DNA of 64,000 nt from Corallococcus macrosporus DSM 14697 (GTDB lineage Bacteria; Myxococcota; Myxococcia; Myxococcales; Myxococcaceae): NCBI RefSeq assembly GCF_002305895.1, contig NZ_CP022203.1:5800001-5864000 (forward strand). The letters are read 5' to 3'. Below the pieces are notes generated by a model. It did no database searches, had not been told where the DNA came from, and worked only from the letters and a program-made list of their open reading frames with translations. Positions within the stretch are counted from its first letter, which is position 1. Each line of letters starts with the position of its first letter. Position numbers and translations under genes: made by a program. Shown here in pieces: positions 1 through 428 of the stretch.

Positions 1-66
1 CCGCGACTTCTTGTTACCGTTTTCTTCGCTGCTGCCTCGCCGTCTTTTCGTTCGGCGGGGCGTCAG

Positions 67-96
67 CTTCTATTTCAGTCCGGCGTCTTCTGTCAA
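67..96 (-). promoter_or_regulatory. Tandem promoter P4 (nearest the left edge)
   Basis: The minus strand reads TTGACA at 96-91, an 18-base spacer, and TAGAAG at 72-67. The downstream discriminator (CTGACGCCCC) is the most diverged of the four copies. It is the last promoter before the window edge, so it would lie nearest the transcribed unit. Confidence 0.65.
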
Positions 97-181
97 GCTG
101 CTCTTTTTCGCCGTCCTGCTGGCTTCCGGAGTCTTCAGCGCCGCCCAGTGGCTTCCGCTGCTTTCTTCCGGAGGGGCGCGG

Positions 182-211
182 CTTCTACCGCTTCGCCGCC
201 CTCCCTGTCAA
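182..211 (-). promoter_or_regulatory. Tandem promoter P3
   Basis: The minus strand reads TTGACA at 211-206, an 18-base spacer, and TAGAAG at 187-182. CCGCGCCCC again follows. The spacer is two bases longer than in P1 and P2. Confidence 0.7.
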
Positions 212-278
212 CCACTGCTTCGTTGACTCCCTCGACTCGTCCGCCCTTTCCTTCCGGGCTTCTTCGTCGGGGGCGCGG

Positions 279-306
279 CTTCTACCACCACCGCGTCTTC
301 TGTCAA
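279..306 (-). promoter_or_regulatory. Tandem promoter P2
   Basis: The minus strand reads TTGACA at 306-301, a 16-base spacer, and TAGAAG at 284-279. The discriminator CCGCGCCCC is the same as in P1 and P3. The spacer sequence is close to that of P1, so the copies look duplicated. Confidence 0.7.
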
Positions 307-400
307 CCCGCTGCGTTGACCGCCGTATTCCTCGTTGTCGTACTGACTCGCTCGAAGTGCCTTCCGCGCCAGTGCGCGGGCTTCTTCGCGAGGGGCGCGG

Positions 401-428
401 CTTCTACCACTGCCGCGCTTCCTGTCAA
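401..428 (-). promoter_or_regulatory. Tandem promoter P1 (most upstream)
   Basis: The minus strand reads TTGACA at 428-423, a 16-base spacer, and TAGAAG at 406-401. A CCGCGCCCC discriminator follows. The -35 hexamer is a perfect housekeeping-sigma match. The GC-rich discriminator is the kind found at stringently controlled rRNA promoters. Confidence 0.7.

Follow-up and report, generated by a model that had tools for sequence, protein, structure and literature searches.

Four tandem promoters, very probably of an rRNA operon, in a Myxococcus-clade genome, and variation in their number among Myxococcaceae

Escherichia coli rrn operons are preceded by two dissimilar promoters, P1 and P2, with an UP element and Fis sites, and rrnB P1 combines a GC-rich discriminator with a 16-bp spacer. 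Upstream of mycobacterial rrnA, a multiple-promoter region (HMPR, P1-PCL1) has been described that holds two promoters in Mycobacterium tuberculosis and five in M. chelonae, and promoter duplication has been invoked for this operon (PMC10218544). For rrnD of Myxococcus xanthus, P4rrnD was characterised as a sigma-A promoter with a consensus -35 and an 18-bp spacer, which is transcribed with sigma-A in vitro, is enriched for CdnL in vivo, and forms an open complex that CdnL stabilises in vitro, the heparin-resistant complex being absent without CdnL (PMC4182748). The numbering of P4rrnD implies at least four promoters at M. xanthus rrnD.

The window (the whole 64,000-nt stretch of DNA analysed) spans 5800001-5864000 of the single-contig genome of a Myxococcus-clade bacterium that is a relative of M. 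xanthus, and carries at its left end an array of four units on the minus strand (431 to 57). The four TTGACA/TAGAAG pairs reported by the initial annotation were all recovered as exact matches on this strand, with -35 boxes at 423-428, 301-306, 206-211 and 91-96, and -10 boxes at 401-406, 279-284, 182-187 and 67-72, and re-measuring returned the same spacers of 16, 16, 18 and 18 nt from upstream to downstream. The units are designated P1 (most upstream, 401-428), P2 (279-306), P3 (182-211) and P4 (nearest 16S, 67-96); their successive -35 starts lie 122, 95 and 115 nt apart, and each has a counterpart at the same position in relatives. Two further parts of the original description hold for some of the units only. 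The discriminators, which had been called near-identical, are identical in P1-P3 (CCGCGCCCC) and differ in P4 (CTGACGCCCC), so that the GC-rich discriminator expected of stringent promoters is found in P1-P3; and the GAAGAAG tracts are exact after P1 and P2, take the form GAAGAAAG after P3, and give way to a merely A/G-rich stretch after P4. Conserved leader blocks on the minus strand follow P1 (353-374, CACTGGCGCGGAAGGCACTTCG, from alignment) and P3 (136-159, AGCGGAAGCCACTGGGCGGCGCTG, invariant across nine aligned sequences). CACTGG is present in both blocks.

In 20,000 simulations, a first-order Markov model fitted to the neighbouring sequence yielded 0 exact units per 500-nt stretch, which excludes a chance origin of the array. 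Exact TTGACA-N15-20-TAGAAG was found 11 times in the whole 8.97-Mb genome (four in the window array, one in the leader of a sister rrn operon, four at the same place within 23S genes, and two elsewhere), and a reversed control pattern gave 0 occurrences in the same 8.97 Mb; outside rrn operons, exact pairs are thus nearly absent from this genome. A generic sigma-70 scan of the region detected no units, because the -10 ends in G.

The operon served by the array was identified from its left neighbour and from a second copy. Left of the window, and beyond a masked block of 2500 nt, lie a 23S rRNA (L004 1679-4495, minus) and a 5S rRNA (L004 1401-1517, minus), on the same strand as the promoters. 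The start of the rRNA leader occupies window positions 1-56 (minus) and in relatives continues to a boxA-like TCTTTGAAAACC and then to 16S, a stretch that is masked here beyond the window edge. In the sister operon at 6.61-6.62 Mb, the leader shares 91% identity with window 1-213, has the boxA-like element about 110 nt downstream of its last -35, as in relatives, and enters 16S at L005 7094. The expectation of a 16S gene within about 300 bases was therefore matched in the sister operon and in many relatives, where 16S begins about 280-305 nt past the last -35, the operon's own 16S being masked. An Rfam scan of the window returned no matches, because the rRNA sits just past its edge. The absence of rRNA inside the window is what would speak for an array that serves a tRNA or protein operon instead, a reading that deserves hardly any credence given the 23S and 5S genes on the same strand past the masked block and the sister leader that runs into 16S. 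These two observations assign the region to an rRNA operon, one of the neighbours originally proposed, and it is very probably the promoter and leader of one of at least four such operons in the genome (counted from 23S matches), with four tandem sigma-A promoters feeding one 16S-23S-5S transcript. Unit counts in this genome were readable at two of four operons, the leaders at 413 kb and 8.75 Mb being masked. Upstream of the sister operon, an apparent nucleotidyltransferase-like frame (aminoglycoside adenylyltransferase type; L005 9200-8460, minus) was noted by eye from the sequence.

The unit nearest 16S was compared with the tested M. xanthus promoter. The published P4rrnD ChIP primers (PMC4182748) match the window at 134-147 with 0 of 14 mismatches and at 76-95 with 1 of 20, and both are exact in several relatives; window P4 has TTGACA and an 18-nt spacer, as stated for P4rrnD. 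The primer matches identify window P4 as the homologue of P4rrnD, and by analogy with the literature on that homologue P4 would be transcribed by RNAP-sigma-A and stabilised by CdnL.

For the family survey, a DNA search with the leader gave matches in 26 of 27 genus genomes and 66 of 96 family genomes, and leaders from the matched genomes were scored with a position weight matrix (PWM) built on 179 distinct units, which gave 0 matches in 346 kb of Markov sequence. The survey produced 474 units in 122 distinct arrays, with spacers of 16 (209 units), 18 (202), 17 (62) and 19 nt (1). The number of units per array ran from one to eight, arrays cut by contig ends or masks giving lower bounds, and intact arrays ranged from two units (the sister operon of the window genome) to about seven (L072). 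Unit number also differs within single genomes (six and three in G007; four to seven in G061). About 95% of seeds have G as the final base of the -10 and none has T, even though one mismatch was permitted, and this conserved non-consensus G would fit an unstable open complex of the P4rrnD type.

Upstream of the window array lies an ORF for gmk (guanylate kinase; 792-1421, minus), and the gmk-rrn order is conserved across Myxococcaceae, in genera that include Myxococcus, Pyxidicoccus, Corallococcus, Citreicoccus and Archangium, so that the gmk-side arrays compared are orthologous operons. In Anaeromyxobacter oryzisoli (L167 5761-6083), gmk is likewise separated from a boxA-like rrn leader by about four TTGACG-type tandem units, which suggests that the tandem arrangement predates the family Myxococcaceae. 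One contig labelled 'Comamonas sp. KCTC 72670' (L137, BNCN01000006.1) has a clearly Myxococcus gmk-rrn region, and its organism name looks wrong.

To follow individual units, their left and right halves were classified separately against window P1-P4 as references. In close relatives, the halves of P2, P3 and P4 resemble window P2, P3 and P4, respectively, mostly at 80-98%. In the window genome's own 6.617-Mb operon, the right half of unit 1 is P3-like (96%, against 71% for the next best), and its left half is P1-like by a narrower difference (0.73 against 0.66 for the next unit, a modest margin within the upstream stretch that was compared). Unit 2 of the gmk-side rrn in M. xanthus AM003 and Myxococcus sp. 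CA023 has a P2 left half and a P3 right half (96%). Such hybrids point to recombination between units as a process by which copies are lost; exchange between the nearly identical cores (TAGAAGCCGCGCCCC) would alter unit number and leave hybrids behind. The earlier proposal of expansion by duplication accordingly gains support, as duplication and recombination, from the variation in copy number and from the hybrids.

The same instability allows P4, as the P4rrnD homologue, to be seen as the only working promoter, with P1-P3 as decaying or redundant duplicates: the published biochemistry (PMC4182748) concerns the P4 homologue only, copy number varies, units are lost through recombination, and some operons are down to two. 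We consider this improbable, since P4 lies farther from the family consensus than the upstream units do (in the window clade, most arrays give PWM scores of 25-30 for P4 and 37-46 for the upstream units), and since the -35, -10 and discriminator of the upstream units are conserved across genera, where decaying copies would drift. From their sequences, P1-P3 are better read as putatively active. Each of the four promoters has a consensus -35 and a -10 ending in the conserved non-consensus G, joined in P1-P3 by the GC-rich discriminator. With all four in use, each would probably form an open complex of low stability, which CdnL would stabilise and to which ppGpp/DksA would be a threat; with several promoters in a row, a growing cell could initiate transcription of the operon more often. 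The genome has CarD-family frames of 1197, 164 and 318 codons, which are probably Mfd, CdnL and CarD, respectively, as well as DksA-type genes and one RelA/SpoT gene. Growth-rate or stringent control by ppGpp/DksA would fit the GC discriminator and these regulators, a fit that falls short of proof, and promoter strength may be additive and tuned by unit number.

A second conserved element is an inverted repeat built on the -35. In the window, a GTCAAC arm (minus strand) lies upstream of the -35 of P2 (315-320) and of P3 (222-227), facing GTTGAC across loops of 7 and 9 nt, respectively. Because of kinship among the surveyed sequences, and because an arm is multiplied whenever its unit is copied in tandem, the following counts do not represent independent events: a GTCRRC arm lies 12-18 nt upstream of the -35 in 211 of 427 surveyed units; the arm pairs over the full 6 bp with its own -35 (GTTGAC) in 172 of 347 distinct segments (50%), against 1.6% of shuffles; exact GTCRRC arms occur in 92 of 122 middle, 62 of 93 penultimate, 36 of 101 first and 14 of 86 last units (Fisher, internal against first 2e-9, internal against last 7e-19); and 83 of 98 one-mismatch variants of GTCAAC retain RNA pairing via G-U (GTCGAC 69, GTCAGC 13, GTCAAT 1), whereas only 4 of the 18 possible single changes would do so. 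The outer stem positions agree with this, one being paired in 200 of 294 cases against 118 expected, but they belong to a small number of subfamilies. In isolation the stems fold stably, at -7.3 to -8 kcal/mol; in folding of longer transcripts, the P2 stem had a mean probability of 0.93 in the prefix transcript, and the P3 stem 0.18 in the prefix transcript and 0.72 in the full leader. Two roles for the arm were discarded: as the inverted -35 of a divergent promoter, which the commonest variant, GTCGAC, would spoil and for which no opposed -10 was seen, and as an intrinsic terminator, the stem being followed by no T tract.

The arm may be an RNA hairpin, a DNA operator, or mere inheritance. 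One tentative idea, doubtful but plausible, is that the -35 hexamers of internal units in Myxococcaceae tandem rRNA promoters have a second use: in RNA begun at a promoter further upstream, they would supply the 3' arm of a conserved hairpin, GUCRRC-N6..11-GUUGAC. If true, the hairpin would couple adjacent promoters, for instance through the resetting, pausing or protection of a polymerase that crosses the next one. Arms that pair with the -35 mostly in internal units, together with the conserved leader blocks between promoters, could also mean that the repeats act as a structured leader or an RNAP-loading array, with bound polymerase or read-through hairpins outweighing independent starts. 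This is unlikely, given that P1 and P4 of the window are without arms and that tandem duplication alone would copy them. Four promoters starting transcription of the rRNA operon remain the preferred account of the array.

No description of copy-number variation or of the -35 inverted repeat in myxobacteria was found in the openly licensed literature. The arrays form a natural series, with near-identical promoters numbering from two to about eight in an operon, which raises the question of what the extra copies bring to a slow-growing, developmentally complex bacterium; the characterised P4rrnD and its regulator CdnL are already at hand for such questions, and the -35-based inverted repeat is a testable element. 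Compared with E. coli rrn P1-P2, the window array likewise places tandem promoters before rRNA, but shows no AT-rich UP-like stretch. At mycobacterial rrnA, tandem rRNA promoters also vary in number between species. The sequences and the phylum are unrelated, and the mycobacterial multiplicity belongs to rrnA, while in the present case unit number varies between several operons of a single genome. M. xanthus rrnD (P4rrnD; PMC4182748) shares the sequence family, the TTGACA and 18-bp spacer of the last unit, and a ChIP amplicon that matches the window, and belongs to a different strain and a different copy of the operon. The gmk-side array numbers four units in the window and three, including one hybrid, in M. 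xanthus AM003. Since P4 matches the tested P4rrnD, the promoter class is already known from M. xanthus, and what is new, alongside the hybrid units and the -35 inverted repeat, is the survey of how unit number varies between operons and species.
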